Below are positions 9,532 through 30,570 of a stretch of DNA of 38,339 nt, piece by piece. Source of the DNA: Bacteroides fragilis. GTDB taxonomy: Bacteria > Bacteroidota > Bacteroidia > Bacteroidales > DTGW01. The translations under genes and the position numbers were made by a program. The notes beneath the pieces are model-generated. The model was not told the origin of the DNA. It made no database searches and worked only from the letters and a program-made list of their open reading frames with translations. Position 1 is the stretch's first letter. Each line of letters opens with the position of its first letter. The stretch is taken from assembly GCA_945889005.1 (NCBI GenBank), contig CAMDBI010000030.1:1-38339 (forward strand), given 5' to 3'.

Positions 9532-10374
9532 TTATAAACTCATAAAATCGAGCTTTAATATTTCTTCATATTGCTCAAATGTTATTTCAAAGTCAAGGTA
9601 CATTTTATTGCAATGCAACAAAGTGAAATTCAATTGTTCAAAGTTTTTATATACTCCAATTTTTGTATCGTTCGATAAATCAAAACAGAAAGTAAAATCG
9701 ACTTTTTTTTGCTCACTGATAGGGCTAAGATTGTACCTGATAATAGTATCTTCAAACTGATAAGGAACAAGAATGGTATAGTCGGCATTGTCTTTCTGAG
9801 CAGCAATAAGCTCGTTGTGAGCATTTAGTGTCGGAAAGAAATTTGTAAACGCTCTTTCAGGCATAGCATTGTATCGATCGTATGTGTTTCGAAAAATTCT
9901 TCTCAACAAACGGGCATATAATGGGCTTTCGACATAAACCACCAAATCGGCAAGTGCGGCAAGCTCCTTGTATGCAGCAAATAAGCCTTCGTACACTATA
10001 ACTGGTGCAGGTTGTATAATTTTATATCCTGTCTGTTTACCCAATGTATAACTATATTCGGGTATATTTGATTGCTTGTTTTCACTTAAAGTTTTTAATG
10101 CAGAGTAGCTTTCGCCAACTTCAAAATACTCGGGATTGTCGTGCCCATAGCTGCCTTTAATGAGGTTCTTTGATTCTCGCCCTTTTTGAAAATTGTCTAA
10201 TTCAATGATTGTTGCCAACCCGGTACCTACTTGGCTCCATATCTGGTTCGTTACCATTGTGCTTTTACAGGTCGAAGTGCCGCCACATACTGCAACCATT
10301 ACAGGGGCGTACTTCCATTTTCGTAATTCGTTGATATGATTTGAAATATAATATATTTCGGGTAACAAATCCAT
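9532..10374 (-). CDS. PRK/uridine-kinase-family P-loop kinase
   Basis: A 280-residue protein. The P-loop GGTSTCKST (31-39) is followed by a strand ending ELDNF (about residues 57-62, as in uridine kinase D-D-F/Y), GSYGHDNPEYFE (about 74-85, matching the 'DHP.A.D' region) and VIVYEGLFAAY (about 125-135), which corresponds to the EGILL/EGLF motif of phosphoribulokinase/uridine kinases. The P-loop has Cys36 where Gly is normal (GxxxxGK), a substitution that may alter nucleotide binding. The last 100 residues do not match classical uridine kinase. The gene is divergent from the first PhnD-like gene, so a role phosphorylating a ribose compound in phosphonate metabolism is possible; this is inference only. 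Confidence 0.7.
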   Translation of the reverse strand: MDLLPEIYYISNHINELRKWKYAPVMVAVCGGTSTCKSTMVTNQIWSQVGTGLATIIELDNFQKGRESKNLIKGSYGHDNPEYFEVGESYSALKTLSENKQSNIPEYSYTLGKQTGYKIIQPAPVIVYEGLFAAYKELAALADLVVYVESPLYARLLRRIFRNTYDRYNAMPERAFTNFFPTLNAHNELIAAQKDNADYTILVPYQFEDTIIRYNLSPISEQKKVDFTFCFDLSNDTKIGVYKNFEQLNFTLLHCNKMYLDFEITFEQYEEILKLDFMSL

Positions 10375-10394
10375 GTTTATTTTTTTCTTTTTTA

Positions 10395-10402
10395 CAAAAA
10401 TA
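10395..10402 (-). promoter_or_regulatory. -7 box for the kinase gene
   Basis: On the minus strand TATTTTTG matches TAnnTTTG, 20 bases before the kinase start codon. A TTG lies 17 bases further upstream, slightly short of usual spacing. The box is back to back with a similar one serving the plus-strand phn genes. Confidence 0.35.
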
Positions 10403-10519
10403 ATGTCTGATTATTATTGCAATATAAGCTGCATATTAATTATATGTTGAATCAATATTAACTTTTTAAAACTCATTTAGTGGTAACTAAAACAAAACAA
10501 TGTGCTAATAATTGCAATT

Positions 10520-10527
10520 TATTTTTG
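10520..10527 (+). promoter_or_regulatory. -7 box upstream of the first PhnD-like gene
   Basis: TATTTTTG matches TAnnTTTG and lies 43 bases before the start at 10571. No clear TTG is at the normal distance, so support is weak. The alternative longer frame from 10502 would start upstream of this box, which argues for the start at 10571. Confidence 0.3.
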
Positions 10528-10570
10528 TAAATGTTTTCAATATTCCCCCAAAAACAAAATTTCTATAAAA

Positions 10571-11512
10571 ATGAAAACATATTATTATGTATTTCTGCTC
10601 ATAATTATAATGGCAGCTGGGTGTAAAAACGAGAGCGACTTGGATTCAAACGCGTTCCCAAAAGTTTTTAAAATAGCACTCTCAGTTGCAAATGATGATA
10701 TGCCAGAAGAAGTTTTTACCAAAATGGAACCTATGAGGCTCTATCTTGAGAAACAACTTGGAATACCCGTTAGATATTTGCACATAAATGGCAATTCGGC
10801 AACCATAGAGGCAATGAAAGCAAAAAAAATACACATGGCAAATTTGTCTCCTTTCCCTTATCTGTTAGCTCGTGAAAGAGCTCAAGTTACAGTATCATTT
10901 TATATGGGTAAAAAAAATGGAAAACCCACAGGCGAATATAGAACCGCTATCTTCACTAAGAAAGATTCAAATATTAAAACTATAGCAGATTTAAAAGCCA
11001 AAAGCCATGAGTTAACAATAGCATTTGTCGATCCAGCATCTACCTCAGGTCATATTATTCCTTATAATTTTTTATTGAGCCAAGGTATTGAGCCCGACAA
11101 GGATTTTAAAAAGCAGGTTTTTGCCAATAGTACGCTTGCTTGTATATTAACACTCTATTCGGGCAAGGTCGATGTTGCGTGTGTTCAAACAAATTCATTC
11201 AGGAAAGTTTACTCTATGAATAAAAATATAAATGACAGTAGTTTCAATTTTTTGTGGATTTCAGAACCTATTCCTCCAACTTCTTATTGTTTAAGAAATG
11301 ATCTAAATCCAGAATTTAAGAAAAAAGTATTTGATGCTTATATAAATGTAAAAAATGATACTGCTGCATGGGGAGCTATAAAACATAGGCTTACATCAAG
11401 ATCTGTAACTCAAACACCAATAGATTCTCTTTGTTACTTACCTATTAACGATAGTGCATACAATGATTTTGCAAAAATGGTTAAAAAAACAAAGGGACTT
11501 AAAATAGAATAG
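10571..11512 (+). CDS. phnD: PhnD-like phosphonate-binding lipoprotein 1
   Basis: A lipoprotein of 313 residues, with lipobox MAAGC (Cys18), of the PhnD/PtxB family that delivers phosphonates, phosphite or related anions to a PhnCE-type ABC transporter. The oxyanion-binding loop DPASTSGH is at residues 154-161; IEAMKAKKIHMANLSPFPYLL (79-99) is the typical domain-1 motif, and SGKVDVAC supplies a conserved Asp. The frame extends upstream to 10502, but the signal peptide begins at 10571. It is followed after one base by a second family member, and its closest homologue here appears to be that neighbour (both have a pre-domain of about 20 residues after the lipobox). No PhnC or PhnE is adjacent; these lie at 25-28 kb. 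Confidence 0.88.
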   Translation: MKTYYYVFLLIIIMAAGCKNESDLDSNAFPKVFKIALSVANDDMPEEVFTKMEPMRLYLEKQLGIPVRYLHINGNSATIEAMKAKKIHMANLSPFPYLLARERAQVTVSFYMGKKNGKPTGEYRTAIFTKKDSNIKTIADLKAKSHELTIAFVDPASTSGHIIPYNFLLSQGIEPDKDFKKQVFANSTLACILTLYSGKVDVACVQTNSFRKVYSMNKNINDSSFNFLWISEPIPPTSYCLRNDLNPEFKKKVFDAYINVKNDTAAWGAIKHRLTSRSVTQTPIDSLCYLPINDSAYNDFAKMVKKTKGLKIE

Positions 11513-11513
11513 A

Positions 11514-12458
11514 ATGAAAAACATCTTCCAAACAATTTTAATTTTCTTGTTTGCACTTCTCTCTGCATGCAACAGCTCTATAGATATAGATAAAAATGGC
11601 AATCCAAAAGTATTGAAGATTGGTATGTCTACCCCTTCGACGAGCGGCGAGGATGCCAGCATGGTTTTTCGCAATATGGAGCCTTTGCGTTTATACCTCG
11701 AGAAAAAACTCGATGTACCAGTGCAATTTATTGCAGTAAGCGGTTATGCCCCTATAGTAGAAGCATTGAAAGCAAAGAAAATACATGTTGCCACCATGGC
11801 GCCCTATCCCTATCTGATTGCACGTAAAACAGCCAATGTAAAAGCGCTCTTTACAACCGGCAATGCACAAGGTCTTCAGGTTCCTTACAAAAGTTGCTTA
11901 ATATTCAACAAATCGCTGGGCATTAAAAATATCGACAGTCTGAAAGCCAATGTGCACAAACTAACCATTGCTTTTGGCGACCCATCGTCGACATCGGGAC
12001 ACGTGATTCCGATTATTTACCTGAGGGAAAATGGCATTGACCCCGAAAAAGACTTTAAGAAAACTGTGTTTGCTCCCGACCAATTATCGGCAGTATTGTC
12101 GGTGAGCAGCGGAAAGTTGGACGTTGCCTGTGTGATGCCCCAATTGCTCAATTCTATTTACATGATGAACAAAAACATTTCGATGAATAACTTTGATATT
12201 ATTGAAATATCGAAACCAATTCCACAAAGCCCTCATTGCATCCGTAAAGACATAAACCCCCAATTTGCCGAAAAAGTAATGAACGCATACTTGGAACTCC
12301 GGCAAACCGACTCAGCTGCATTTTATTGTGTTTTAAATATGTACAAGAAATACATCGTGTTTAATCCCGATTCGTTCCGATATATCGCGGCAGACGAAAA
12401 ATGGTACGACCAATACGAAATCATGATTAAAGATATTAAAGGCCTGAGTATCGAATAA
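11514..12458 (+). CDS. phnD: PhnD-like phosphonate-binding lipoprotein 2
   Basis: A 314-residue lipoprotein (LLSAC, Cys19). The loop reads DPSSTSGH, with Ser in place of the usual Ala, followed by VIPIIYL. Domain-1 motif: VEALKAKKIHVATMAPYPYL. The Asp motif is GKLDVAC. It begins one base after the stop of the first copy, so the two are certainly co-transcribed and probably arose by tandem duplication, although they now differ over most of their length. They may bind different ligands for one shared transporter. It is followed by a 56-bp palindromic repeat and a 155-base spacer before the next gene. Confidence 0.88.
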   Translation: MKNIFQTILIFLFALLSACNSSIDIDKNGNPKVLKIGMSTPSTSGEDASMVFRNMEPLRLYLEKKLDVPVQFIAVSGYAPIVEALKAKKIHVATMAPYPYLIARKTANVKALFTTGNAQGLQVPYKSCLIFNKSLGIKNIDSLKANVHKLTIAFGDPSSTSGHVIPIIYLRENGIDPEKDFKKTVFAPDQLSAVLSVSSGKLDVACVMPQLLNSIYMMNKNISMNNFDIIEISKPIPQSPHCIRKDINPQFAEKVMNAYLELRQTDSAAFYCVLNMYKKYIVFNPDSFRYIAADEKWYDQYEIMIKDIKGLSIE

Positions 12459-12461
12459 TTT

Positions 12462-12613: not shown

Positions 12614-14497
12614 ATGAGAAATGTTTTTTTATTATTGGCAATTAACTTGCTTATTATGAATGTAAAATCGTATAGCCAAGAGTCGAATGATAACTTTAGT
12701 ATTCAAAAAGACATAATGGTTCCCATGCGCGATGGCGTAATGCTCGCAACCGACATATATTTACCTGCCAAAGATGGTAAAGCCATCAACGGGAAATTTC
12801 CTGTAATTTTCCACCGTACACCCTATAACAAAAATCAAAGCGACTTCACAGCTGTAAATCTCTTTTGCAGTAATGGCTATGCGGTTGTTTTTCAGGATTG
12901 CCGCGGACGATACAAATCGCAAGGAAAGTTTACCAAATATGTAAACGAGCCCGAAGATGGCTACGATGCTGTTGAATGGATTGCCAAACAAACCTGGAGC
13001 AACGGAAAAGTGGGTATGCGTGGAGGTTCGTACCTTGCTCACGTGCAAGCATCGGCAGCTAAGCTCAATCCGCCACACCTTTCAACTATTATACTTACAG
13101 TCGGGGGTACTTCGAATAGCTGGAAACATGCCGTACGCGACCATGGAGCTTTTTGCCAGAAACAACTTACCTGGGCTTTTTCGAATCTCAGAAAAGAATC
13201 GGACGACTCGGTGGTTGTGAAAATGATGCAAAGAGAATCTGTGGGTGATTGGTTCCAAGCATTGCCTCTCAAAAAAGGTTTAAACCCCCTATCGGTTTCG
13301 CCCGAGATGGAGGATTATATTTTTGAACAAATGTCGCATACCGACTACGATGCATATTGGAAACAAATGGGCATGAACTGGATGGAATACTACACGCAAA
13401 CATCCGATATACCGATGATTCACGTATCGGGTTGGTACGACAATTATTGCCAGACTGCAGCCGATAATTATATGGGACTGAGTGCCATTAAAAAATCGCC
13501 TGTTCGCTTAATGCTTGGACCATGGATGCACGGCACTTTCGACAAATCGTACTCGGGCGATGTCGATTTTGGCACAGAATCGACTATTCCCGAATACAAC
13601 CTGCAATGGCACTTGCGTTGGTACGACCATTTCCTGAAAGGCATAAAAAATGGCGTAGAAAGCGACCCTGCTGTAAAAGTATTCGTGATGGGAACCGGCA
13701 ATGGGCATAAAGATGCTGCAGGTCGATTGTTTCACGGAGGATATTGGCTTACTTCTTCCAAATGGCCATTGCCCGAAACTCGCTTTACCAACTATTATAT
13801 GCACCAGGGAGGCTTGCTAAGTATGGTCCAACCTACAAAAGACGAAAAGCCGGTAACGTATATTTTCGACCCCGAAAACCCTGTACTAACTATCGGGGGG
13901 GCTATGGCATCGACCGAGCCATTGTGGATTGGTGGTGCATACGACCAACGCGAAAAACCATACAACGGCGACCCGAAAAAAGGCCATTATGGCTCTAAAC
14001 CACCCTATCTGCCTTTAAAAGCACGTAAAGATGTGATGGTATACCAAACAGAACCTTTAGAAAACGACGTACAAATTGTTGGACCCATAGTTATCAAACT
14101 TCATGCGTCGTCCGACTGCTACGATACAGATTTTACTGGTAAACTGATTGATGTGTACCCGCCATCTGCCGACTTTCCAAGCGGGTTCGAAATGAACCTT
14201 ACCGATGGCATTATCAGGGCTCGTTACCGTAATTCACCGGAGAAAGCAGAGCTCATGGAACCCGGCAAAACCTACGAGTTTACTATAGAACCTTTTTCAA
14301 CTGCCAATGTATTCAAAAAAGGACACCGTATACGTGTCGATATTTCGAGTTCCAATTTCCCGAACTACGATGTAAACCCCAATACCGGCGAACCATTGGG
14401 TTTCAACCTGATGAGCAAAAAGGCTCAAAACTCCATACATCATAGTTCCGAAACTCCTTCTTACATAATATTGCCCATAGTCGAATTGAAAAATTAA
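12614..14497 (+). CDS. CocE/NonD-family alpha/beta hydrolase, exported
   Basis: A 627-residue protein with a signal peptide (about 1-21). The catalytic domain shows VPMRDGVMLATDIYLP (36-51), DCRGRYKSQG (95-104), nucleophile Ser139 in GGSYLA, Asp276 in GWYDN and His306 in MHGTF, followed by the jelly-roll C-terminal domain typical of X-Pro dipeptidyl-peptidases, glutaryl-7-ACA acylases and cocaine esterase. The family cleaves acyl-ester and amide bonds. The gene sits between two pairs of PhnD-like proteins and is 6 bases before the phn-type hexapeptide gene, so it could release a small acyl or peptidyl group from a phosphonate-containing substrate. That link is inference from context; generic peptidase activity is the safe reading. 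Confidence 0.85.
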   Translation: MRNVFLLLAINLLIMNVKSYSQESNDNFSIQKDIMVPMRDGVMLATDIYLPAKDGKAINGKFPVIFHRTPYNKNQSDFTAVNLFCSNGYAVVFQDCRGRYKSQGKFTKYVNEPEDGYDAVEWIAKQTWSNGKVGMRGGSYLAHVQASAAKLNPPHLSTIILTVGGTSNSWKHAVRDHGAFCQKQLTWAFSNLRKESDDSVVVKMMQRESVGDWFQALPLKKGLNPLSVSPEMEDYIFEQMSHTDYDAYWKQMGMNWMEYYTQTSDIPMIHVSGWYDNYCQTAADNYMGLSAIKKSPVRLMLGPWMHGTFDKSYSGDVDFGTESTIPEYNLQWHLRWYDHFLKGIKNGVESDPAVKVFVMGTGNGHKDAAGRLFHGGYWLTSSKWPLPETRFTNYYMHQGGLLSMVQPTKDEKPVTYIFDPENPVLTIGGAMASTEPLWIGGAYDQREKPYNGDPKKGHYGSKPPYLPLKARKDVMVYQTEPLENDVQIVGPIVIKLHASSDCYDTDFTGKLIDVYPPSADFPSGFEMNLTDGIIRARYRNSPEKAELMEPGKTYEFTIEPFSTANVFKKGHRIRVDISSSNFPNYDVNPNTGEPLGFNLMSKKAQNSIHHSSETPSYIILPIVELKN

Positions 14498-14503
14498 AAT
14501 TTT

Positions 14504-15157
14504 ATGTTACAATACGTTAAGCAATTTCCTGAAGTTTCGACCCATCAAAAAGTTGAACGCGACCAGTACAACCGTACCATCGACCCAAGCTGCCGCATAG
14601 TCAATAGCCATGTTGGCGAATATGTCGACCTCTACGCCAACACAATGATGCTCGATTCGTCTATCGACGATTATAGCTACATAGCTGGCAACGGGCAGGT
14701 TATATATTCGACCATCGGGAAGTTTTGCAGTATAGCCAACCAGACCGTAATAAACCCCGGAAACCACCCACAATGGAGGGTTACGCAGCACCACATGACC
14801 TATCGCCGAAAGCACTACGGCTTAGACGCGGTCGACGATGCTGAATTCTTCCAATGGCGCAAAGACCATGCTTGTAGTATCGGTCACGATGTGTGGATGG
14901 GTCATGGGTCAATTGTTTTGCCGGGTGTAAAAATTGGAACTGGTGCCATAATTGGTTCGGCAGCAGTGGTTACCAAAGATGTTCCCGACTACGGTATTGC
15001 CGTAGGTGTGGGTGCAAAAGTCATCAAAAAACGCTTTTCGGACGATATCATCAACAAATTATTGAAATCGGAATGGTGGAACTGGGATCGTGCAACGCTC
15101 GAAGCCCGATACAACGATCTGTTCGACATGAATCTTTTTCTTGAAAAATATTGCTAA
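14504..15157 (+). CDS. Hexapeptide acyltransferase of the phosphonate-operon family
   Basis: A 217-residue left-handed beta-helix acyltransferase of the xenobiotic acetyltransferase group. Residues 30-80 form hexapeptide turns ([30 protein letters not shown]); [19 protein letters not shown] (72-90) and [12 protein letters not shown] are typical, and the second helix [20 protein letters not shown] (126-145) contains the catalytic-type His. This matches the family recorded in phn operons as 'phosphonate metabolism protein, transferase hexapeptide repeat'; its exact substrate is not established. It lies 6 bases after the CocE-like gene and 13 before a PhnD-like gene, so the operon context agrees with a phosphonate role, possibly acylation of an aminophosphonate. 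Confidence 0.85.
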
Positions 15158-15170
15158 AAATAAATTCATT

Positions 15171-16076
15171 ATGAGAAGTTTAATTATTATTATGTTTGCT
15201 ATATTACTAACAACCTGTGTTGGTAATTCCGATACAAAAATCAAAGAACTTACTTTTGCTGTCATTCCAAGCGACGACATGGTTCAAACTACTCAATATA
15301 ATAAAAATATTAGTAAATATCTTGAAAAAGAGCTTGGAATTGAAATTAAATTTATAAAAGCTACTGATTATACAGCAGTAATTGAAGCCATGCGTTCCAA
15401 TAAATGTCATATATGCATTTTGGGGCCATTTTCTTATTTGCTAGCTTCGCAAAATGCTGGAGCAGAGGCAATAGCTACTATTGGTTTACAAAGTACAGGA
15501 TTGTATACTTACCGAAGCATGTTACTTACCCATCCAAAGTCAGGTTTGAAAAGTACCGACGATATTAAAAAAAATGCAAAATCGCTTCAATTGGCTTATT
15601 CCGATCCGGCATCAACATCTGGGCATTTAATTCCAAGAACATACATAAGCAGTTTGGGATTAGACCCCGATAAAGATTTTGCCGGAGTGCGTTTTTCGGG
15701 AAGTCATGTTGCATCGTTGCTTTCGTTGCGAAATGCTAAGTTCGACTTGGCTGGTGTGAGTTCAGAATCGTACCTTCGATTGTTAGCCAATAAACAAGCC
15801 GATAGTAGTGATTATGTCGTACTTTGGCAATCGGATCCTATACTTACCGACCCTTTTTGTGTGAAAAACACATTGCCTACAGAGCTTAAAGAAAAAATAA
15901 GAACTGCATTATTAGAAATGCATATTAAAGATACCGCTACGTTCAAACAATACATCAGATATACATACAAAGGCGACAAAATGCGTGATTCGCTTATTTT
16001 TATGGCAGCACACGATTCAGCTTTCAATTCGCTAAGAGTAATTGCTCGTTCAGTTAAATCGCTTAATATTCGATAA
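15171..16076 (+). CDS. phnD: PhnD-like phosphonate-binding lipoprotein 3
   Basis: A lipoprotein with lipobox LLTTC (Cys16), about 301 residues. The loop DPASTSGH is followed by LIPRTYI; domain-1 motif IEAMRSNKCHICILGPFSYLL; Asp motif NAKFDLAG. The frame opens at 15141, but a start at 15171 gives a proper signal peptide. It is more similar to the following gene (shared AMRS-K, SYLLA, AGAEA) than to the first two copies, so it forms a second pair. It has a Cys in place of Asp in the KVD-like motif (NKCHI). The start follows the hexapeptide gene by 13 bases. Confidence 0.88.
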   Translation: MRSLIIIMFAILLTTCVGNSDTKIKELTFAVIPSDDMVQTTQYNKNISKYLEKELGIEIKFIKATDYTAVIEAMRSNKCHICILGPFSYLLASQNAGAEAIATIGLQSTGLYTYRSMLLTHPKSGLKSTDDIKKNAKSLQLAYSDPASTSGHLIPRTYISSLGLDPDKDFAGVRFSGSHVASLLSLRNAKFDLAGVSSESYLRLLANKQADSSDYVVLWQSDPILTDPFCVKNTLPTELKEKIRTALLEMHIKDTATFKQYIRYTYKGDKMRDSLIFMAAHDSAFNSLRVIARSVKSLNIR

Positions 16077-17012
16077 ATGAAAACTTTTTCTCAACTATTG
16101 CTTTTATTATGTTTTTTTATATTTTTTATTGGGTGCAACTCCAAACCCCAAAACCTTGTTATCGATAAAATTGTTGTTGGAGTTGTTGGGGGCGACGATC
16201 CGGCCGAGCGAGTCAGTTGTTTTAAAAAACTAACTCCCTATTTCGAAAAAGAATTTGGAGTAAAAAAAGTCGATATTTATGTAACGAGCGACTATGCATC
16301 GGTTATTGAAGCCATGCGCTCCAAAAAGGTCGATATTGCTCACCTGGGTGAATTGTCGTACCTATTGGCAGCCGAAAGAGCAGGGGCCGAAGCTTTTGTT
16401 ATGGCTGGTACTGCCGATGGACAAAGAGCTACAAGCAGTATTATTCTTACAAGCTCAAAATCGACAATAATGAATATCGACGATGTGAAAAAGCGCTCCA
16501 AAGAACTTTCACTTGCATTTGCCGACCCGGCATCTACTTCGGGCCACTTGTACCCTCGCAACTATTTCAATTCAATTGGTCTCGATCCCGAAAAATCGTT
16601 TAAAACTGTGTCGTTTACAAACGACCATTCGACTGCTATTTTAACAGCTATGTCGCAAAAAGTTGATATTACATGTACGTATTCTTTAGCTGTCAACAGG
16701 CTAATAATAAAAAAACGCATTCAAAAAGACGATTATCGCATTCTTTGGGAATCTGAGCCATATATAACTCCCCCAATTTCTGTCAGAGGGGATCTGCCCG
16801 CAACTTTGAAAGAAAAAATCAAACAAGCCTATCTCGACCTGCCGGTGAAAGAGCCTAAACTCTGGAGCGATTATAAAAACACATTGTATATTATGTACCC
16901 CGATGAAATACGCGAAAAACTCATTTATATTCCTTCGCACGACAGCATGTACAATGGTATTAGAGAATTGGCCCGCAATTGCAAGAATTTTAATTTCTTA
17001 GGCTCAAAATAA
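16077..17012 (+). CDS. phnD: PhnD-like phosphonate-binding lipoprotein 4
   Basis: A 311-residue lipoprotein (FFIGC, Cys20) with loop DPASTSGH followed by LYPRNYF. The start directly abuts the stop of copy 3 (TAA then ATG). The domain-1 motif is IEAMRSKKVDIAHLGELSYLL, with Glu where copies 1-3 have Pro in the same turn (SP-, AP-, GPFSYLL), a change next to the ligand pocket that could alter specificity. Asp motif: QKVDITC. With copy 3 it forms the second tandem pair and leads into a methyltransferase and a GNAT in one operon. Confidence 0.88.
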   Translation: MKTFSQLLLLLCFFIFFIGCNSKPQNLVIDKIVVGVVGGDDPAERVSCFKKLTPYFEKEFGVKKVDIYVTSDYASVIEAMRSKKVDIAHLGELSYLLAAERAGAEAFVMAGTADGQRATSSIILTSSKSTIMNIDDVKKRSKELSLAFADPASTSGHLYPRNYFNSIGLDPEKSFKTVSFTNDHSTAILTAMSQKVDITCTYSLAVNRLIIKKRIQKDDYRILWESEPYITPPISVRGDLPATLKEKIKQAYLDLPVKEPKLWSDYKNTLYIMYPDEIREKLIYIPSHDSMYNGIRELARNCKNFNFLGSK

Positions 17013-17019: not shown

Positions 17020-17784
17020 ATGGATAAGAAACGTCCGTTTTACCACGAATATGCCTGGGCATACGATTTGCTGGTCGATTCGAACACCTACAAACAGTTG
17101 TCTTTTATTAAAACTATTGTTTCTTTACACCTATTGCCGCAACCTCTTCAGGTGCTTGATGCCGGTTGTGGCACAGGCTCTCTGGCAATTGCATTAGCGG
17201 GCGATGGACACCAGGTTACAGCCATCGACCTTTCAGAGCCACTTTTAGAAGAAGCAAAGAGAAAAAATACCAACGAGCAGAATCTTACTTTCGTAACAGT
17301 CAATATACTTGAGTTGGAGACCTCAAATACCTACGATCTTATTGTTTGTCGCGGAGTGCTTAACGATTTTACGCTGGATGAACAACGCGAAAAGCTTTTT
17401 AGTATTTTTCACAAAGCATTAAGGCCAAACGGTTTGCTTGTTGCCGATGTTCGCGATTGGGAAGCTACCCAACAACGAAAAACCGAAAAACCTTTGTACA
17501 AAAAGAAAGTAAAAACCAATAAAGGCACATTGACCTTCACCAGTGTAACCCACCTGAACCCCACCTCCCAAACCCTCGAGATTAGCGAATCACATAGGCT
17601 CGAAACCAAAAAAGGCACTTTCGATTCCGATAGTTTTTTTGTAATGAAATGCTGGAACTTGAACGAGATTGTGCAATACAGCCAAAAAGTTAAATTTTCG
17701 GTCGAAAACCTTCTAGGCGGCTACGATATCAATACCAAAAAGGGCGAAACCGACCGAATAGTATTTGTTTTAAAGAAATTGTAA
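17020..17784 (+). CDS. SAM-dependent methyltransferase in the phn operon
   Basis: A 254-residue class I methyltransferase. Motif I is VLDAGCGTGSLAIAL (about 45-59), the second-strand acidic residue is in TAIDLSEP, and VCRGVLNDF supports motif III. A C-terminal region of about 100 residues, rich in beta structure (TFTSVTHLNPTSQTLEI), is of the type seen in small-molecule N- or O-methyltransferases. It starts 7 bases after the fourth PhnD-like gene and precedes a GNAT by 11 bases, so it belongs to the same transcript. The substrate is unknown, but the context suggests modification of an imported compound. Confidence 0.82.
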   Translation: MDKKRPFYHEYAWAYDLLVDSNTYKQLSFIKTIVSLHLLPQPLQVLDAGCGTGSLAIALAGDGHQVTAIDLSEPLLEEAKRKNTNEQNLTFVTVNILELETSNTYDLIVCRGVLNDFTLDEQREKLFSIFHKALRPNGLLVADVRDWEATQQRKTEKPLYKKKVKTNKGTLTFTSVTHLNPTSQTLEISESHRLETKKGTFDSDSFFVMKCWNLNEIVQYSQKVKFSVENLLGGYDINTKKGETDRIVFVLKKL

Positions 17785-17795: not shown

Positions 17796-18218
17796 ATGGA
17801 AATCAAGTATGAAAAGCTTTTGTCACATCACTACAACGAAGTCATCAACCTGTGGCTGCATACCGAAGGGGTTGGTGTCGGTATGGGCGACGATGAAGAA
17901 GAATTGGCAGTTTTTCTTGTCAAAAATGAGGACTTATGCTTTGTTGCCAAAGCCGACGAAGAGATAGTCGGCACCATTCTTTGCGGTCACGATGGTCGAC
18001 GAGGCTATGTCTATCATGTAGCAGTCGATAGCGACTACCGTTATCTCGGAATTGCAAAAACATTGGTCGACATGAGTATCAAAGGCCTGAAAGAAGCCGG
18101 TATAGGCAAATGCCATTTATTTGTGTTTAAAAACAACACGAGTGCTCAGTCCTTTTGGTCGCACAATGGTTGGAATGAACGTACAGACTTGTTTATTATG
18201 TCGAAAACAATTAAATAA
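17796..18218 (+). CDS. GNAT-family N-acetyltransferase
   Basis: A 140-residue GNAT. Motif A, VAVDSDYRYLGIAKTLVDMS (75-94), is a slight variant of the acetyl-CoA-binding Q/RxxGxG/A, here RYLGIA. Upstream CGHDGRRGYVYH (63-74) and downstream FVFKNNTSAQSFWSHNGW (113-130) are normal for the fold and resemble the YpeA-like subgroup. It lies at the end of a tightly packed run, 11 bases after the methyltransferase. In phn operons a GNAT such as PhnO acetylates aminoalkylphosphonates; this protein is not recognisable as PhnO itself, so the analogy is only contextual. Confidence 0.8.
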   Translation: MEIKYEKLLSHHYNEVINLWLHTEGVGVGMGDDEEELAVFLVKNEDLCFVAKADEEIVGTILCGHDGRRGYVYHVAVDSDYRYLGIAKTLVDMSIKGLKEAGIGKCHLFVFKNNTSAQSFWSHNGWNERTDLFIMSKTIK

Positions 18219-23442: not shown

Positions 23443-25277
23443 TGATAATTTGCAAGAGTGGTTTCTATTTTTTCTGCTTTGCCCTCGGTCTGAAGATTGT
23501 ATATTACTTTGAAATAGCCTTCGATATTGACTAATGTTTCGCGATTGCCAATTTGCTCTACCCGCCCATGGTTTAGTGCTACAATCTTATCGGCAAATAC
23601 TATCGACGATAGTTTGTGCGATATAACAATGCAAGTACAATTGTTTATAACCTCTTTGAGCGATCGCAATATCGATTGTTCGTTCAATTCGTCGATATAC
23701 GATGTTACATCGTCGAGTATATACAAATCGGGTTTTTTGAGCAGCAAACGAGCCAGTGCCATGCGTTGTTTCTGCCCTCCCGAAAGGTTTATACCCCTTT
23801 CACCAATCATTTTATTGAAACCCTCGTCGTATCGCGTCAAAAGATCCGAAATACAGGCCATTTCCATAGTCTTTTCTATCACATTGCTTGTGGCTTTAGG
23901 ACTCACAGAACACAAATTTTCTCTAATCGATGCCGAGAACAATATCGAGCTTTGAAGCGCTATACCCAAGTGTTGGCGTAGGAAAAGTTTCGAATAGGTG
24001 CGAATATCGAGTCCATCTAACAGGATTGTTCCTTCTGTTGGTTCGTAGAGCCTCATGAGAAGTTTTCCAATGGTCGATTTGCCCGAGCCTGTTGGACCAA
24101 TAATAGCAACTTTTTCTCCAGCCTCAATTTTAAAGCTTACGTTGCGCAATGCATAGGTTTTTTGCCCGGGGTACTGAAACGAAACATTGACAAATTCAAT
24201 ATTGCCTTTTATTGGTTCATCCGATATGTACTCGATATCTTCTTCGGAAGGCAATGTTAGCAACTCGTCGATGCGTTGAAGGGCTACCATTGCCATTGAA
24301 AAGTTCGAAAGTACAGAACTTACCTGACGCAAGGGCCACAACATCATATTTACAAATATTCCAATACCCAGAAGCTCACCAATGGTTAAAACTCCTATCG
24401 AAGCCAGATAAATGGCACAAAGGTTGGAAACAACTATTTGCAAAAAAACTACGAAGTTCATTGCCGGCCAATAAAAACTATGCAACTCGATGTGCTTTAT
24501 GCCTGCATCTAATCTTCGTTGGTTTTGTTTTTCAAATGTGTCGATAGCCAAAGGTTCGTTAGCATAAGCTTTTATGGTTCGTATACCTTGTATATTCTCC
24601 TGTATAATGGTGTTGAGCAAATCCGACTCCGCCTCGTGCTGTTCCCAAATGTGTTTCTCACGTTTGTAAAATCGAAATGAAAGCACCACCACGATTGGCA
24701 TCAAACAAATAGAGATTACCGTTATCAGTATATTGATTTTGCACATGATGATAATTGAAAAAACCACCATGAAGAAAATGCGGATCACTTCCACGATATT
24801 GCCCTGAATAAAACCTTTAACAACCTCCAAATCGTTGGTAGATCGTTGAATAATTTCGCCCTTCGAATGGTGAATATAATGGTGTATCGATATTCCTTGC
24901 AAATGACTAAATAGCTTGTTGCGCAAGCGACTCAGAGCGCTTTCGGTTGAAGTAGCATTAATAGTATTGGCACCAAATACAACAATACTTCGGGCAAAAG
25001 TGACCATAACATACAATATTGAAAAATAGAGCAATGTAGATATTATGGGACTAAAGTTCCGGGTAATGCTCTCTAGTATTGGAAAACTAACAACATGGTT
25101 GACAACTGCTTTGTGGGTTTTGGACAAAGTTACCAACTCATCGGTAAGCCACTGAAATACCTTGGGTTCTATGGTTCTTAAAAAAATAACACCAATAAAT
25201 AATATGCTCGAAACCAAATAAGACCACTTATTTCGTCCGAGAATTTTCAATAATATTGAAAATGAAGAAGATTTCAT
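23433..25277 (-). CDS. ABC exporter half-transporter with degenerate Walker B
   Basis: A 614-residue half-transporter. The TMD spans about 15-335 and the NBD about 358-600. Walker A GPTGSGKS (394-401), signature LSGGQ (498-502), H554. Walker B ends LYILDDVTSYID: residue 523 is Asp where the catalytic Glu is expected. Together with the partner's LSNGE this gives a coherent heterodimer with one consensus and one degenerate ATP site, as in TM287/288 or BmrCD. It lies upstream of its partner on the minus strand and is divergent from phnC. Confidence 0.88.
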   Translation of the reverse strand: MKSSSFSILLKILGRNKWSYLVSSILFIGVIFLRTIEPKVFQWLTDELVTLSKTHKAVVNHVVSFPILESITRNFSPIISTLLYFSILYVMVTFARSIVVFGANTINATSTESALSRLRNKLFSHLQGISIHHYIHHSKGEIIQRSTNDLEVVKGFIQGNIVEVIRIFFMVVFSIIIMCKINILITVISICLMPIVVVLSFRFYKREKHIWEQHEAESDLLNTIIQENIQGIRTIKAYANEPLAIDTFEKQNQRRLDAGIKHIELHSFYWPAMNFVVFLQIVVSNLCAIYLASIGVLTIGELLGIGIFVNMMLWPLRQVSSVLSNFSMAMVALQRIDELLTLPSEEDIEYISDEPIKGNIEFVNVSFQYPGQKTYALRNVSFKIEAGEKVAIIGPTGSGKSTIGKLLMRLYEPTEGTILLDGLDIRTYSKLFLRQHLGIALQSSILFSASIRENLCSVSPKATSNVIEKTMEMACISDLLTRYDEGFNKMIGERGINLSGGQKQRMALARLLLKKPDLYILDDVTSYIDELNEQSILRSLKEVINNCTCIVISHKLSSIVFADKIVALNHGRVEQIGNRETLVNIEGYFKVIYNLQTEGKAEKIETTLANYQWN

Positions 25278-25303
25278 CGGCAGTAAACTTTCATAATAAG
25301 CAG

Positions 25304-25311
25304 CAAACCTA
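25304..25311 (-). promoter_or_regulatory. -7 box for the ABC exporter operon
   Basis: On the minus strand TAGGTTTG fits TAnnTTTG, 26 bases before the exporter start codon. No clear -33 TTG is seen. It sits in the divergent 181-base spacer shared with phnC. Confidence 0.4.
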
Positions 25312-25433
25312 CATTGTAAAAATTTATAAGATATTACCCATTTGTTAGTTTTTAATTAAGCTTGGTATATTGTTAATTTAATAAATTAATACAATACTAA
25401 CATTCAGCTTAAACATACCTAATATTGACCGTG

Positions 25434-25441
25434 TACATTTG
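25434..25441 (+). promoter_or_regulatory. -7 box for phnC
   Basis: TACATTTG fits TAnnTTTG and lies 17 bases before the phnC start codon, similar to the antitoxin promoter in this window. The -33 element is not clear. The rest of the spacer (25312-25433) is AT-rich with no visible operator. Confidence 0.45.
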
Positions 25442-25458
25442 TCGAAAATTAGTTTGAA

Positions 25459-26271
25459 ATGATACAAGTTAAGGATATAACCAAGCAATTGCCAAACGGT
25501 AAACAACTTTTAAAGGGAATAAGTTTCTCGGCAGCTAAGGGTGAATTTATAGGTATTTTAGGACCTAGTGGCGCAGGCAAAACTCTTACTATGAAGTGCT
25601 TGAATGGTCTGCTAAAGCCCACTACCGGTAGTGTAAATATTACCTTGCCCGATAAGCATCAGGTAGACCTTGCAAAAATTGGCAGAAAAGAATTGAAACA
25701 TGTTAGAGAGCATATTGGCGTTATTTTTCAAGGTTTTAATCTTGTAAAACGATTGACTGCCCTAGAAAATGTGATGATTGGAAAATTGGGTCAAATCAAT
25801 GTTTTCAGAAGTTTATTTTATGGCTTTACCGACCACGAAGCTGAACTTGCCTTGGAAACTCTCAAGAAAGTTAAAATGGAAAGCATGGCACATCGAAAGG
25901 TTGAAACTATGAGTGGAGGCGAAATGCAACGTGTAGCTATCGCTAGAGCTATGTTTCAAGACCCTATCATGATCTTGGCCGACGAACCCATTGCAAACCT
26001 CGACCCTTCAAATGCCAAAAGTATTATGAAACTGCTCAAACCACTTTCCGAAACAATGCCTGTTATTGGTGTTTTTCATCAACCCGAAATAATAATGGAA
26101 TATTGCACTCGTGTAATTGCTATTAAAGATGGAAAGGTATTTTACGATGGCGATCCAAAAATGAGCCAGCAATTGCTATTCCAAATATACGAAGATGAGT
26201 TTAACAGCATTATATCTCATCATATAGTTCCTTCTCCAGAAGAGTCCTTGTTCGATTTGAAAACATCTTAA
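25459..26271 (+). CDS. phnC: PhnC-type phosphonate ABC transporter ATPase
   Basis: A 270-residue ATPase that powers import by the PhnDE system. Walker A GPSGAGKT (35-42), Q-loop Q91, signature MSGGE (151-155) replacing LSGGQ, Walker B ending ILADEP (172-177), and D-loop LDPSN. The segment GQINVFRSLFYGFTDHEAEL (111-130) matches the insertion characteristic of PhnC ATPases. It is 27 bases before the fused permease. The binding proteins it should serve lie 8-15 kb upstream, beyond a minus-strand block. Confidence 0.93.
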   Translation: MIQVKDITKQLPNGKQLLKGISFSAAKGEFIGILGPSGAGKTLTMKCLNGLLKPTTGSVNITLPDKHQVDLAKIGRKELKHVREHIGVIFQGFNLVKRLTALENVMIGKLGQINVFRSLFYGFTDHEAELALETLKKVKMESMAHRKVETMSGGEMQRVAIARAMFQDPIMILADEPIANLDPSNAKSIMKLLKPLSETMPVIGVFHQPEIIMEYCTRVIAIKDGKVFYDGDPKMSQQLLFQIYEDEFNSIISHHIVPSPEESLFDLKTS

Positions 26272-26298: not shown

Positions 26299-27921
26299 AT
26301 GAAAAAAGTAGAAGATAGAAATCCTCTTTCACTAAAGAGGTATCGTATGCCAATATTGATAATATTTGTGCTTACATTGTCGATATATGGTTCTGCATTG
26401 TTGGTGGGTTTCAATATACCCGATTTGATTGCGGGTTTTCCAAAGGGAATGGAAGTTGTGTCGTTTATGTTTCCTCCCGATTGGAGTGCATTTGGCGATA
26501 TGATGATGCCAGCATTGCAAACAATCGTAATGGCTTTTTTAGGAACAGTTATTGGGGCTGTATTGTCAATTTTATTTGGTCTGGCAGCTGCTGCAAACAT
26601 TGCTCCTATATGGATTCGCAATACAAGCCGATTTCTTATAGCTATAGAACGTGCATTGCCAGAGACCATTGTGATATTGATATTGGTTGCAGGTCTGGGG
26701 TTAGGACCTTTTCCGGGCATAATGGCTTTAGCATTGGGTTGCATCGGTATGTTGGGCAAATTGTTTGCCGATGCCATTGAAGAAATCGACTCGAAAGTGC
26801 TCGAATCTATTGCATCGACTGGTGCAAGCCGCTTTCAGGTGATACGTTTTGGGGTAATCCCGCAGATATTTCCTGCATTAATTGCAAATACCATTTTTCG
26901 TTTCGAAATTAACATTCGTTTATCGGTAATACTTGGTGCTGTTGGAGCCGGAGGTATTGGATTTGAACTCTACCACGCTATAGGACTATTGGAATACCAA
27001 AGAGCCACAGTAGCTCTAATATGTATATTGTCGCTTGTGTTTCTTACCGAACGTCTTTCGATTTACCTGCGCAAAAAGGTACTCGACGAAAACGAAATTA
27101 TGAAACGCTCTGAGGTGAAGGCTTTGATTCCTTCGCAAAAATTTAACCGTCAAATGAAAGTTATTACTGGAGTTCTTGTACTTGTAAGTGCCTTATTTAT
27201 CGTGTTAGAAATAAATCCGTTTATTATTTTTACCGATTTTCATTATATGACCAGCCTTATTTTCGACGACATGCTCCCGCCCGATTTTAAAATACTTTGG
27301 GAAAATACTACCATTTTTAAGAGTATATTCGAAACCTTGTCTATGGCATTTTTGGGAACACTCATTGGAGGTTCGTTGGCATTGTTTTTTGCTATGTTTG
27401 CTTCCGACAATACTGCTCCTACAAAAAGTATACGTTCGATAACCCGATTTTTACTTGCTTTCGAGAGGGTTACTCCTTCGCTTATTATTATTCTTATTTT
27501 TATTATTGCACTTGGTATAGGCTCCTTTGCCGGTACGTGCGCTCTTATAGTCGGCACAGTCGGCACTTTTGGCAAACTTTTTTCCGATGCCATCGAACAT
27601 GTCGATCGAGCACCGGTCGATGCCATTTATTCTACTGGTGCTAATAAGTTACAAGCCATTAGGTTTGGCATTATGCCACAAGCTATGCCCTCTATTATTG
27701 CCAGTTGGTTTTATGCTCTCGATGTAAATATTAGAATGGCTATCGGTTTAGGTATTTTTGGAGGTGGAGGTATTGGTTTTGAACTTTATATGGCCATGAA
27801 GGTTTTACGATACAAAGAAGCGCTGGCTTTAATTTTCTTTACAATTATTTTAGTGAGTTCAATCGAGAAAATATCAGATTATTTTAGAGGAAAAATAATT
27901 TACAATTCTCATTTGAAATAA
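26299..27921 (+). CDS. phnE: Fused double PhnE permease
   Basis: A 540-residue permease containing two PhnE-type domains, at about 20-270 and 290-540. Each has a long first loop with a PPD motif (PPDW, PPDF) and a C-terminal EAA-like motif: ADAIEEIDSKVLESIASTGA in the first and SDAIEHVDRAPVDAIYSTGA in the second, both followed by VIPQ or IMPQ and the GxGGIGFELY end. Canonical PhnE is about 260-280 residues and works as a dimer. Here the two halves are joined in one polypeptide and have diverged, which would create a fixed heterodimer. PhnC lies just upstream. Confidence 0.92.
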   Translation: MKKVEDRNPLSLKRYRMPILIIFVLTLSIYGSALLVGFNIPDLIAGFPKGMEVVSFMFPPDWSAFGDMMMPALQTIVMAFLGTVIGAVLSILFGLAAAANIAPIWIRNTSRFLIAIERALPETIVILILVAGLGLGPFPGIMALALGCIGMLGKLFADAIEEIDSKVLESIASTGASRFQVIRFGVIPQIFPALIANTIFRFEINIRLSVILGAVGAGGIGFELYHAIGLLEYQRATVALICILSLVFLTERLSIYLRKKVLDENEIMKRSEVKALIPSQKFNRQMKVITGVLVLVSALFIVLEINPFIIFTDFHYMTSLIFDDMLPPDFKILWENTTIFKSIFETLSMAFLGTLIGGSLALFFAMFASDNTAPTKSIRSITRFLLAFERVTPSLIIILIFIIALGIGSFAGTCALIVGTVGTFGKLFSDAIEHVDRAPVDAIYSTGANKLQAIRFGIMPQAMPSIIASWFYALDVNIRMAIGLGIFGGGGIGFELYMAMKVLRYKEALALIFFTIILVSSIEKISDYFRGKIIYNSHLK

Positions 27922-27969
27922 TCATTTTAATAAGCGATCAGGAAGTTGATATCTTAAATATTGTATTGT

Positions 27970-29283
27970 ATGCCTTATAAAAACTTATTTCCATCGCTTA
28001 ATTCGTCTAATTACAAGCTGTTTACCATTGGTCAGTTTATTTCAAATATTGGCTTTCTGATCGAAAATATTGCATTGTCATGGTTGGTATATCGGCTTAC
28101 AGACTCTGCTATGTATATCGGCATATTGGTTTTTATCGGGCAAATTACAATTTTTTTCACATCGCCTTTTTCGGGAATCTTGGCCGATCGATTTTCGCGT
28201 CATAAACTTCTAATACTAACAAATATAATAGCGGCCTTTGTTTCTTTTATATTAGGGCTTTCGGTCTTGTTTAATGTTGCAAGTTTATGGTTTGTGTTTG
28301 CCACTCAAATAATTGTTGGCTTTGCTCGAGGTATTGACAATCCGATTCGTAACACTTTTGTAAACGACCTTATTGATAAACCCGAACATCTGGTAAATGC
28401 AATTTCTTTCAACTCATGTATTTTCAATATTGCTAAAATTATTGGACCATCGTTGGCGGCTATTCTTATACCCTGGGCGGGCGAAGGCATTTGTTTTATT
28501 TTAAACAGTATTTCGTTTATTTCGTTTATTTGGTTGTTATACTATATAAAACTTAAACCCCAAGAATTAAACACAAAAAAAACTAATGTTTTTTATGAAA
28601 TTCGTGAAGGTTTTAATTATTCGTTTAATTACTCCCCAATTCGATCTGTCATTGTTTTTGTGAGTTTAATTGGATTATTAGCTTTTTCACTTTATATTGT
28701 TTTGCCAGTATATTCCAAATTGATTCTCAAAGGAGGGGCAGATACTTATGGATATATTACAATGTTTTCGGGTATTGGAGCATTGGCGGCAGCTCTATAT
28801 TTGGCAGCAAAAAAAAACGCTTTGGGTTTTGATTTTTTAATTTTTATAGCCGGTTTAATCTATAGCTTGGGTTACATGATGCTGTCATTTGTGTCAAATT
28901 TTGTTTTTGCCTCAATAATCATGATTTTTATTGGGTTTGGACAGGTTCTGTTATTTGCAGCTGCCAGTTCAATACTTCAGACCCTTACCAACGAAAAAAT
29001 GTTGGGAAGAGTATATGGCCTGTATTTTATGTTTTTTATGGCATGTACTACCATAGGCAGTCTTATGGTGGGCAAACTAACCGATTTAATTGGTCCTTCA
29101 AAAACTTTTCTTATTATTTCAGGTCTTACGTTTTTTTTGAGCATGGCATATAGCACACAAATTAAACATGTTAGGCGAAAAAGTTTTCGACGTTTCATTT
29201 CGCTTGGTATTGATCCTGTTGCTTTAAGAAAGGTCAAAATAGTAAATGGTGCAAATAAAATCAGAAATTTTTATGTCCGATAA
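27970..29283 (+). CDS. MFS transporter
   Basis: A 437-residue MFS membrane protein resembling EntS-type exporters: first helix with LFTIGQFISNIGF, DRFSRHKL in the loop after helix 2 (the MFS motif A), and about twelve hydrophobic segments with a longer central loop. A TTG-started extension from 27961 is possible, but the ATG at 27970 is preferred. It is 48 bases after the phnE stop and precedes phnM by 99 bases, so it probably belongs to the phn unit. Whether it exports a product or imports a precursor is unknown. Confidence 0.8.
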   Translation: MPYKNLFPSLNSSNYKLFTIGQFISNIGFLIENIALSWLVYRLTDSAMYIGILVFIGQITIFFTSPFSGILADRFSRHKLLILTNIIAAFVSFILGLSVLFNVASLWFVFATQIIVGFARGIDNPIRNTFVNDLIDKPEHLVNAISFNSCIFNIAKIIGPSLAAILIPWAGEGICFILNSISFISFIWLLYYIKLKPQELNTKKTNVFYEIREGFNYSFNYSPIRSVIVFVSLIGLLAFSLYIVLPVYSKLILKGGADTYGYITMFSGIGALAAALYLAAKKNALGFDFLIFIAGLIYSLGYMMLSFVSNFVFASIIMIFIGFGQVLLFAAASSILQTLTNEKMLGRVYGLYFMFFMACTTIGSLMVGKLTDLIGPSKTFLIISGLTFFLSMAYSTQIKHVRRKSFRRFISLGIDPVALRKVKIVNGANKIRNFYVR

Positions 29284-29382
29284 GTTTTTTATTGTTTAAT
29301 ATTTATTTAATTCTCATTATTTTCTAATCAAATACTAATATTACTACCTCAATTTTGGCTAAAACAATTAATTATTTTCAAT

Positions 29383-30570
29383 ATGAATATGTTTATTTTA
29401 ACAAATGCCAATATTGTAACTCCAACAGAAAGTTTCGAAGGTAGTGTAATCGTCGAAAATGGAATTATTTCTGATATAATAAAATTCAAAACTTACAATG
29501 AAGGTATAAACCTTGAAGGTCAATGGCTTATACCTGGCATTATCGATATTCATTCCGATTATCTCGAAAAAGAGATTCACCCTCGCCCAAGTGCCGATTT
29601 TCCAATACCTTTTGCTATGCACTTTATGGATGCACGTGCTGCTTCATGTGGTATTACGACCTTATTTAGTGCTGTAAGTTTTTCACAAGACAATATGAAA
29701 TCGCGTACATTTGCCGATGCCATCAATCTGGTAAAAGCCATTGAAAACACCACCGACAATTTGCTTGTCCGTCATTATATTCATGCTCGGCTCGACCCCA
29801 ATACTGCTGCCGTACTCGAATATCTCGAAGAAATGAAAAATCTTCGAAATCTAAAATTGGTTGTTTTCAACGAAAATATTCCCGGTCAACGTCAGTTCCC
29901 GCTCGAACGACAAATTGAAATGCGCGCTAAAAGTCTTGGTATTAGCCGCGAAGAAGCTCATAAACTTCTGCTCGATTTTATAGAAGAAAAGAGTAAAATT
30001 AACCATAGAGGCGATATTCAAAAAGCGTTTTCTCAAAGTATGATAATTGGAAGCCACGACGATACTACGATTGAACATGTAATAGAAGCCAAATTATTTG
30101 GAGCTACACTATCCGAAATGCCTACAACGATTGAGGCTGCTCGTAAAGCCAAAGAATTAAATATGTTTGTGTGTATGGGTGCGCCAAATTACTATCGTGG
30201 AGGGTCTCATTGTGGAAATCTTTCTTGTATAGATGCGATGAACGAAAATCTTGTTGATATTTTTTGCAGCGATTACCATTTCCCAACTATGTTGGGAAGC
30301 CTTGTTAAAATGTTTAATTCTGGAGTAAATTACAGTTATGCAACAAACCTTATGACCAAAAATGCAGCAGACTACCTAAATATGCCACAAATTGGAAGCA
30401 TTGAAATTGGAAAAGTAGCTGACCTTGTAAGTTTCAATATTAAAAACGATTATGGTATTGTGAAAAATGTATGGGTCGATGGTTTTTTGAAATTTTCTAC
30501 TAAATATATCAATGACAATAAAAATAATGATATTATAAATGAGCTAAATGTTATATCTAATATGAATTAA
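29383..30570 (+). CDS. phnM: Ribose-1-methylphosphonate 5-triphosphate diphosphatase PhnM
   Basis: A 395-residue amidohydrolase-superfamily enzyme. PhnM removes pyrophosphate from alpha-D-ribose 1-methylphosphonate 5-triphosphate in the C-P lyase pathway. PGIIDIHSDYLEKEIHPRPS (52-71) carries the metal-binding H-x-D variant typical of PhnM. SCGITTLFSA, SHDDTTIEHV (about 225), MGAPNYYRGGSHCGNLS (about 265-281) and SDYHFPTM supply the remaining ligands and PhnM-specific turns. The genes producing and using its substrate (phnGHIJKL) are not in this window. The protein is intact, so the pathway is probably completed elsewhere or the enzyme acts on another ribose phosphonate. Confidence 0.93.
   Translation: MNMFILTNANIVTPTESFEGSVIVENGIISDIIKFKTYNEGINLEGQWLIPGIIDIHSDYLEKEIHPRPSADFPIPFAMHFMDARAASCGITTLFSAVSFSQDNMKSRTFADAINLVKAIENTTDNLLVRHYIHARLDPNTAAVLEYLEEMKNLRNLKLVVFNENIPGQRQFPLERQIEMRAKSLGISREEAHKLLLDFIEEKSKINHRGDIQKAFSQSMIIGSHDDTTIEHVIEAKLFGATLSEMPTTIEAARKAKELNMFVCMGAPNYYRGGSHCGNLSCIDAMNENLVDIFCSDYHFPTMLGSLVKMFNSGVNYSYATNLMTKNAADYLNMPQIGSIEIGKVADLVSFNIKNDYGIVKNVWVDGFLKFSTKYINDNKNNDIINELNVISNMN

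Follow-up and report, generated by a model that had tools for sequence, protein, structure and literature searches.

A phosphonate import locus in a Bacteroides fragilis draft genome, probably one half of a split C–P lyase system, with variant PhnM and PhnJ proteins

The window analyzed here, a stretch of 38,339 nucleotides corresponding to contig C30 of a Bacteroides fragilis draft assembly (G000) that comprises 62 contigs and 3.26 Mb at 99.4% completeness, carries a phosphonate (phn) locus that encodes a putative importer and a divergent PhnM protein. A divergently oriented gene for a PRK/uridine-kinase-family protein (9532–10374, minus strand; PF00485, 1.3e-17) is followed by a first plus-strand block that encodes the phosphonate-type binding lipoproteins PhnD1 (10502–11512) and PhnD2 (11514–12458), a CocE/NonD-family hydrolase (12614–14497), a phn-type (phn_thr-fam) hexapeptide acyltransferase (14504–15157; TIGR03308, 251.8 bits, cut-off 201.65), the binding lipoproteins PhnD3 (15141–16076) and PhnD4 (16077–17012), a class I methyltransferase (17020–17784), a GNAT acetyltransferase (17796–18218), and an NPP-type phosphodiesterase (18281–19477; PF01663, 1.2e-92), the N-terminus of which, judged by eye, resembles an export signal. 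A minus-strand block of methyltransferases (one of them at 20722–21504), a GNAT, and two ABC exporter half-transporters (21607–25277) follows, the exporter pair being divergent from PhnC. The second plus-strand block encodes the PhnC ATPase (25459–26271), a PhnE–PhnE fused permease (26299–27921), an MFS transporter (27961–29283), and PhnM3 (29383–30570; TIGR02318, 318.2 bits, cut-off 390.55), so called because it is the third PhnM of the genome. All of the genes named in a first-pass annotation of this stretch (PhnC, the double PhnE, PhnM, four PhnD proteins, the hexapeptide transferase, the kinase, the NPP phosphodiesterase, methyltransferases, and GNATs) were found where that annotation had placed them.

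The families of the PhnCDE importer were all present. PhnC was identified as the best match to its family, at 254 bits, below the equivalog cut-off of 266.1. The two halves of the fused PhnE matched TIGR01097 separately (252.2 and 233.7 bits; cut-off 216.7) and shared 43% identity across 210 amino acids, and this fused protein was the sole TIGR01097 match in the genome (E ≤ 1e-10). The four PhnD proteins of the window scored above the Pfam cut-off and above that of TIGR01098 (170.9–221.8 bits; cut-off 112.05), and below the PhnD equivalog cut-off (148.6–211.6 versus 261.1 bits). With a fifth protein encoded on contig C25 (27210–28130), the genome has five PhnD proteins in total, all of which pass TIGR01098. 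We then compared 16 PhnD proteins at the eight positions that line the 2-aminoethylphosphonate (2-AEP) pocket of Escherichia coli PhnD, which served as the reference. PhnD3 kept all eight residues, as did none of the 14 other proteins, with the reservation that its residue at position 177 depends on the alignment (Ser in the first and Glu in the second). PhnD1, PhnD2, PhnD4, and PhnD5 each deviate from the E. coli residues, PhnD1 at four of the eight positions. Among solved structures, the nearest relatives of PhnD3 by sequence were PtxB (1.5e-31) and a Phn-type protein (1.9e-29), with E. coli PhnD at 1.6e-18, and this closer relation to PtxB-type structures would count against a 2-AEP role. 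It is likely that several binding proteins with different pockets serve the one permease.

None of phnG–L was found on the window contig. A whole-genome search located PhnI (427 bits) and PhnJ (417 bits) adjacent to each other on C25, in a single-strand core with the order PhoB-like regulator–phnG–H–I–J–K–L–M1–M2–2H-like protein–hexapeptide transferase, and with phnN nearby; the transferase is a second one of the phn type. Hence, phnG, H, I, J, K, L, and M are all present in this genome. PhnG, PhnH, and PhnN scored above their NCBIfam cut-offs, and PhnK and PhnL were best matches below theirs; the two core PhnM proteins (350.2 and 329.5 bits) also fell below the TIGR02318 equivalog cut-off, and both keep the usual PhnM residues. 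The core PhnJ lies at L005:9391–10302 (minus strand). The PhoB-like response regulator, identified with Pfam, lies directly upstream of phnG (C25 12735–13433, minus strand; L005), and such a regulator occupies the same place in the sibling-genus genome G001 (87% complete; L019:7473–8168, minus strand). The core operon also encodes a protein of 269 amino acids (C25 4575–5384, minus strand; L005) with two HxT motifs, which are found in both genomes (G001 copy at L019:676–1515, minus strand). Its C25 copy matched no Pfam family at E 1e-5, the label "DUF1045" being a guess, and the HxT pair is the sole support for a 2H fold. This protein is possibly a 1,2-cyclic phosphodiesterase that replaces PhnP, for which no match above the cut-off was found in G000 or G001; operons without phnP can hold a 2H phosphodiesterase, according to the part of the source consulted (PMC10574752). 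A second PhnJ-like sequence on C25 (29284–29793, plus strand; L006:9284–9793) was considered as a functional "mini-PhnJ" and rejected: beyond about 108 good PhnJ residues it has lost an internal piece and the reading frame shifts, the first 327 bases being 72% identical at the DNA level. This broken copy, near the fifth PhnD gene, is a probable remnant of a second C–P (carbon–phosphorus) lyase locus. Since the window holds the only PhnE match of the genome and C25 holds the core, each contig supplies the part that the other is missing.

The two contigs also share sequence at their ends. Window bases 1–83 (plus strand) are the reverse complement of C25 bases 1–83, forming an exact end-to-end, suffix–prefix overlap (83/83). 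In the whole genome (E ≤ 1e-5), this sequence matched window 1–83, C25 1–83 (minus strand), C25 1208–1290 (minus strand), and C25 1026–1108 (minus strand, 98%), so that its extra copies are confined to the first 1.3 kb of C25. An array of 182-base repeats lies at this end of C25 (L005:954–1406), with related sequence at window 1–237, and probably caused the assembly break; the two contigs are thus likely to be neighbors, separated in the assembly within the repeat array. If they are joined, coordinate arithmetic puts roughly 14 kb, not counting repeats collapsed in the assembly, between PhnD1 and the end of the core hexapeptide transferase gene (C25 3826), and the C–P lyase core probably lies at about this distance from the PhnD operon. 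In contig C186 of G001, relatives of genes from the 31–39 kb region of C25 lie between PhnM3 and PhnD4, which also points to C25 and the window as parts of one region.

Both halves were also found in the sibling genus. G001 retains the methyltransferase–ABC exporter pair–PhnC–PhnEE–MFS–PhnM3 series in the same order and orientation at 48–76% identity: 48% for the methyltransferase that borders the syntenic block, 62% and 58% for the exporter subunits, 73% for PhnC, 76% for PhnEE, and 60% for the MFS transporter. The end of its contig C83 carries a PhnD gene (related to PhnD1 and PhnD2 alike), the hexapeptide transferase (81% identical and in the same operon position), and the start of a PhnD3 gene; the other end of C186 carries the remainder of a PhnD3 gene and then PhnD4 (61–63% identical). 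We infer that the two PhnD3 pieces are one gene. Its core operon, on C144, follows the gene order of G000, with a PhnJ that is 85% identical (L019:4226–5134, minus strand) and with one phnM only. CocE was absent from between the matching genes of G001, and neither the PRK/uridine-kinase-family protein nor the NPP-type phosphodiesterase had a relative on the three G001 contigs read, the remaining G001 genome not having been searched for the phosphodiesterase. The MFS transporter and the ABC exporter pair adjoin PhnC and PhnM3 in both genera.

With the window PhnM3 as the query at E 1e-40, a threshold that more distant PhnM proteins would escape, PhnM3 was matched in two of five genomes of the family (G000 and G001) and in two of 295 genomes of the order. 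PhnJ was found in one of 395 genomes of the phylum (Bacteroidota) and in one of 395 genomes of the class, each time in G000; the two samples may overlap, and the PhnJ-positive G001 belongs to neither. Since published surveys, in the parts consulted, list Bacteroidota or Bacteroidetes among the carriers of C–P lyase genes (PMC10734540, PMC9617973), this rarity is a property of the sampled genomes.

A comparable division occurs in Sinorhizobium meliloti. On pSymB of strain R28, a hexapeptide transferase gene comes after phnGHIJKL, and the part read (174–182 kb) contains no phnM; the one PhnM match lies at 534.8–535.9 kb. In strain 2011, PhnE- and PhnD-like genes lie next to PhnM. As in the window, the transporter and phnM are therefore set apart from phnGHIJKL, the core having been read in R28 and the PhnM surroundings in 2011. 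The two arrangements differ in that the G000 core has its own PhnM1 and PhnM2, with PhnM3 separate and divergent, whereas no phnM is annotated in the core stretch of S. meliloti. In marine bacteria, the consulted parts of two reports describe organisms with two phnM genes, one of them outside the operon (PMC9381506), and clusters that contain, besides a GNAT and a hexapeptide transferase, another phnM-like gene (PMC3840354); an extra phnM, a hexapeptide transferase, and a GNAT in or near the phn genes are thus features that these clusters share with G000. Given the S. meliloti and marine phnM precedents, the split arrangement is of a known kind. The presence of a core in the genome, the conservation in the sibling genus, and the S. 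meliloti precedent together argue for a split C–P lyase locus rather than a new uptake system, and we consider it very probable that the window is the uptake half of a two-part system, the core of which lies on C25. The gene layout alone is that of a rare but ordinary split C–P lyase locus; the catalytic variants, namely PhnM3 in the window and PhnJ in the core, are the part worth following.

PhnM3 was compared with other PhnM proteins in an alignment of 22 sequences, which extended down to 24% identity and included four from loci without phnG–L in the stretch read. At position 165, PhnM3 and its G001 orthologue have Asn (2/2), whereas the 20 others all have His; at position 138, both PhnM3 proteins have Asp, with Glu in 19 of the others and Ala in one. 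By the pattern of the amidohydrolase superfamily, both positions are presumed metal ligands, His165 presumably being the strand-5 ligand. The motif residues H57, D59, H225, and D297 were kept in all 22 sequences, PhnM3 included. In the phylogenetic tree, PhnM1, PhnM2, and PhnM3 grouped with a Mesobacillus PhnM (98/96), and the stem branch of PhnM3 was long, at 1.33 changes per column. The PhnM3 proteins of G000 and G001 were 71% identical over their whole length, with 0.27 nonsynonymous (dN) and 1.9 synonymous (dS, near saturation) substitutions per site; as dN is well below dS, the protein is under purifying selection. Neither a profile search nor a DNA-pattern search recovered a PhnM with Asn165 from viral contigs, and a single scan of genome contigs, with patterns built from one sequence, recovered only the sibling protein. 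Because the motifs are mostly kept, the presumed metal site is changed, and selection is purifying, the most likely role of PhnM3 is hydrolysis or binding of some related ribosyl-phosphonate instead of the standard step. A non-catalytic relic or regulatory pseudoenzyme is a less probable alternative. The loss of a residue kept in all 20 other PhnM proteins and the long stem are what such a relic would lead one to expect, but the full length, the cross-genus identity, and the low dN relative to dS speak for a maintained protein, and the four motif residues are intact in both copies. The loss of the presumed metal-ligand His goes unmentioned in the consulted parts of the reports on the marine clusters (PMC9381506, PMC3840354).

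The second variant concerns PhnJ. In E. coli PhnJ, Cys241, Cys244, Cys266, and Cys272 are assigned to the Fe4S4 cluster and the thiyl radical, and Gly32 to the glycyl radical, as described in the consulted parts of three reports (PMC9947105, PMC7916636, PMC11978286); a mismatch is described in that the cluster cysteines lie about 30 angstroms from Gly32 (PMC9947105, PMC7916636), whereas a Zn site located between PhnI and PhnJ holds a ligand that was modelled as the cyclic-phosphate intermediate, a ribosyl 1,2-cyclic phosphate (PMC9947105). The PhnJ proteins of G000 and G001 retain only Cys241 of the four. Seventeen PhnJ proteins were compared, most of the one-Cys members having been chosen as the best matches to the G000 protein and not at random, and the same pattern was found in nine of them: G000, G001, Mesorhizobium AR07, Haematobacter op2, Nitratireductor OM-1, Sinorhizobium B11, Thermus HB8, Microvirga VF16, and Rhizobium 11515TR. 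In these nine, Cys241 was invariably present and Cys244, Cys266, and Cys272 were invariably absent, whereas each of the four cysteines was present in the remaining eight. Two further proteins from beyond this panel, those of S. meliloti R28 and Marinobacter VT8, are of the four-Cys type, so that the S. meliloti system differs from that of G000 in this respect as well. Seven of the one-Cys proteins are plasmid-borne and come from Alphaproteobacteria and Thermus. Four of the nine hold a single cysteine in the entire protein and therefore could not hold a four-Cys cluster alone, ligands from partner subunits being conceivable. Meanwhile, Gly32 and the Zn/His-site residues Arg107, His108, and Gln124 were kept in all nine, and His328 and His333 of PhnI were kept in all 14 proteins compared, seven of which are partners of a one-Cys PhnJ. 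The nine one-Cys proteins fell on one side of a branch with moderate support (84/87; 79% of bootstrap trees). Among 215 plasmid PhnJ records, eight were at least 60% identical to the Mesorhizobium protein and eight Thermus records lay at 55–59%; with part of these records read, the one-Cys class looks like a minority among plasmid PhnJ proteins. Plasmid pOT1-5 of Haematobacter massiliensis (L024, L050), with one four-Cys and one one-Cys C–P lyase operon, offers a natural comparison pair.

In the literature searched, including the parts consulted of PMC9947105, PMC7916636, PMC11978286, and PMC10574752, no description of a one-Cys PhnJ was found, which does not establish its novelty in print. 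A tentative and rather unlikely explanation of the one-Cys pattern is a second, radical-free "C–P lyase" complex, in which the Zn/His site is kept and the Fe–S cysteines are gone, and which in the lineage of the window would be accompanied by a re-tooled PhnM3 and by several PhnD pockets with linings suited to other ligands. A Zn-assisted attack by the ribose 2'-OH would then free the phosphorus group as a cyclic phosphate, with substrates that have a better leaving group than an unactivated carbon, such as phosphorus esters, P–N compounds, or activated phosphonates; alternatively, C–P bonds might be cleaved by a cluster-independent route. Decay of these C–P lyases, to which the absence of three of the four assigned catalytic or cluster cysteines could be attributed, is an improbable reading, considering that all nine proteins, which belong to three phyla and group together, lack the identical three cysteines and retain the identical one, that the glycyl-radical and Zn-site residues and their PhnI partners persist throughout, and that Haematobacter pOT1-5 retains both kinds of operon together.

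In comparison with the phn operon of E. coli K-12, G000 has homologues of phnC, D, E, G, H, I, J, K, L, M, and N in common, along with His328 and His333 of PhnI and Gly32 and His108 of PhnJ. It differs in having two loci, a fused PhnE, five PhnD proteins, and three PhnM proteins; in having the PhoB-like regulator in front of phnG, at the position that phnF takes in E. coli (no search for PhnF itself was made); in having a weak PhnP match elsewhere in the genome; and in having a PhnJ without C244, C266, and C272. The one-Cys plasmid operons resemble G000 in a PhnJ with Cys241 alone of the four cysteines, which groups with the G000 protein. Unlike in G000, transporter genes adjoin the core in Haematobacter, Nitratireductor, Sinorhizobium B11, and Thermus (the four annotations showing both), and unlike in PhnM3 of the window, the usual PhnM His is found in Mesorhizobium and Thermus, the two one-Cys hosts compared.

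Several observations weigh against the reading as a split C–P lyase system. NCBIfam named neither PhnI nor PhnJ of C25 (E ≤ 1e-8), the identities of which rest on Pfam matches and alignment. It would be unsafe to assume that a one-Cys PhnJ cleaves the C–P bond by the accepted radical mechanism. A full-length PhnP match, weak at 83.1 bits against a cut-off of 272.25, lies on contig C29 (5118–5867, minus strand; L060), so that PhnP may exist in G000 in a distant form; this match has no close counterpart in G001. The overlap between C25 and C30 sits inside a repeat with further copies on C25, and their adjacency is therefore likely but not proven. The AlphaFold2 model of PhnM3, built from two sequences, had a mean pLDDT (predicted local distance difference test score) of 37.3, too poor to place N165, and was left unused. 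The upstream regions were also scored for direct repeats (11 phn regions and 61 control regions of unmatched lengths, with patterns chosen after viewing the sequences). The scores peaked at a period of 11 for CTTAACAT and CTAACAT, and were higher at a period of 14 for CTGTCAT with two units. For each of the three patterns the mean phn score exceeded the control mean, but the top control regions scored at least as high as the top phn regions, and a Pho-box-like 11-base periodicity could not be separated from the controls and is at most a hint. CTAACAT-like runs with an 11-base period occur upstream of PhnC in both genomes (window 25278–25458 and L020:4572–4726), with the controls not clearly separated.

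The first-pass annotation had described the locus as having no C–P lyase core, which holds for contig C30 but not for the genome, where the PhnG–PhnL homologues, two phnM genes, and phnN were found on C25; its suggestion that the core lies elsewhere was thus borne out, and a complete operon, the result that the annotation itself had named as refuting, probably lies just outside the window, subject to closure of the gap at the 83-base overlap. The neighborhood is kept in a relative, the sibling genus preserving the PhnC–PhnEE–MFS–PhnM3 and PhnD–hexapeptide transferase–PhnD3–PhnD4 orders, which indicates a system, though of the split C–P lyase kind and not the undescribed uptake-and-salvage system envisaged in that annotation. 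Its idea of a different ribose-phosphonate substrate gains some support from the loss of a presumed metal ligand in PhnM3 and of three of four cysteines in PhnJ. The data spoke neither for nor against the outside release step by the NPP and CocE enzymes that it also suggested. Loci that could be read as free of C–P lyase do exist, with no phnG–L annotated within the 2.9–4 kb read on either side: genes for PhnC, PhnD, and PhnE lie beside phnM on plasmids of Peteryoungia and Pseudonocardia autotrophica, and only phnD and phnC lie beside phnM on a plasmid of Bacillus subtilis DK01. In S. meliloti AK83, phnF–phnM adjoins an alkaline-phosphatase-family gene. The PhnM proteins of the first three (L044, L045, and L041, respectively) lie on long branches. 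Despite these loci, and despite the change in PhnM3 at H165, which all four keep, a self-standing phosphonate or phosphonate-ester uptake-and-salvage system without C–P lyase, in which PhnM3, NPP, and CocE would be catalytic, is very unlikely, as the genome has a complete core and no other PhnE match, G001 also has both halves, CocE is not conserved between the matching genes of G001, and the plasmid hosts with phnM–transporter loci may carry a core outside the stretches read.

Under the preferred reading of a split C–P lyase system, the several PhnD proteins (PhnD1–5) would capture different phosphorus compounds and feed one permease, widening the range of uptake, and PhnC/PhnEE would import the captured compounds. 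PhnI, PhnG, PhnH, and PhnL would couple these to ribose triphosphate, PhnM1 and PhnM2 would trim the ribose triphosphate product, and PhnJ, with PhnI, would convert the trimmed product to a cyclic phosphate. The 2H-like protein, or the distant PhnP relative encoded elsewhere in the genome, may then open the ring, and PhnN would make phosphoribosyl pyrophosphate.

Natural complexes that lack three of the four cysteines but retain Gly32 and the Zn site may reveal what the enzyme can dispense with, and the one-Cys PhnJ makes the disputed role of the Fe–S site testable by expressing such an operon. The occurrence of this class further suggests that counts of phnJ in metagenomes, which serve as a proxy for the methane released from methylphosphonate, may lump together two types of enzyme.

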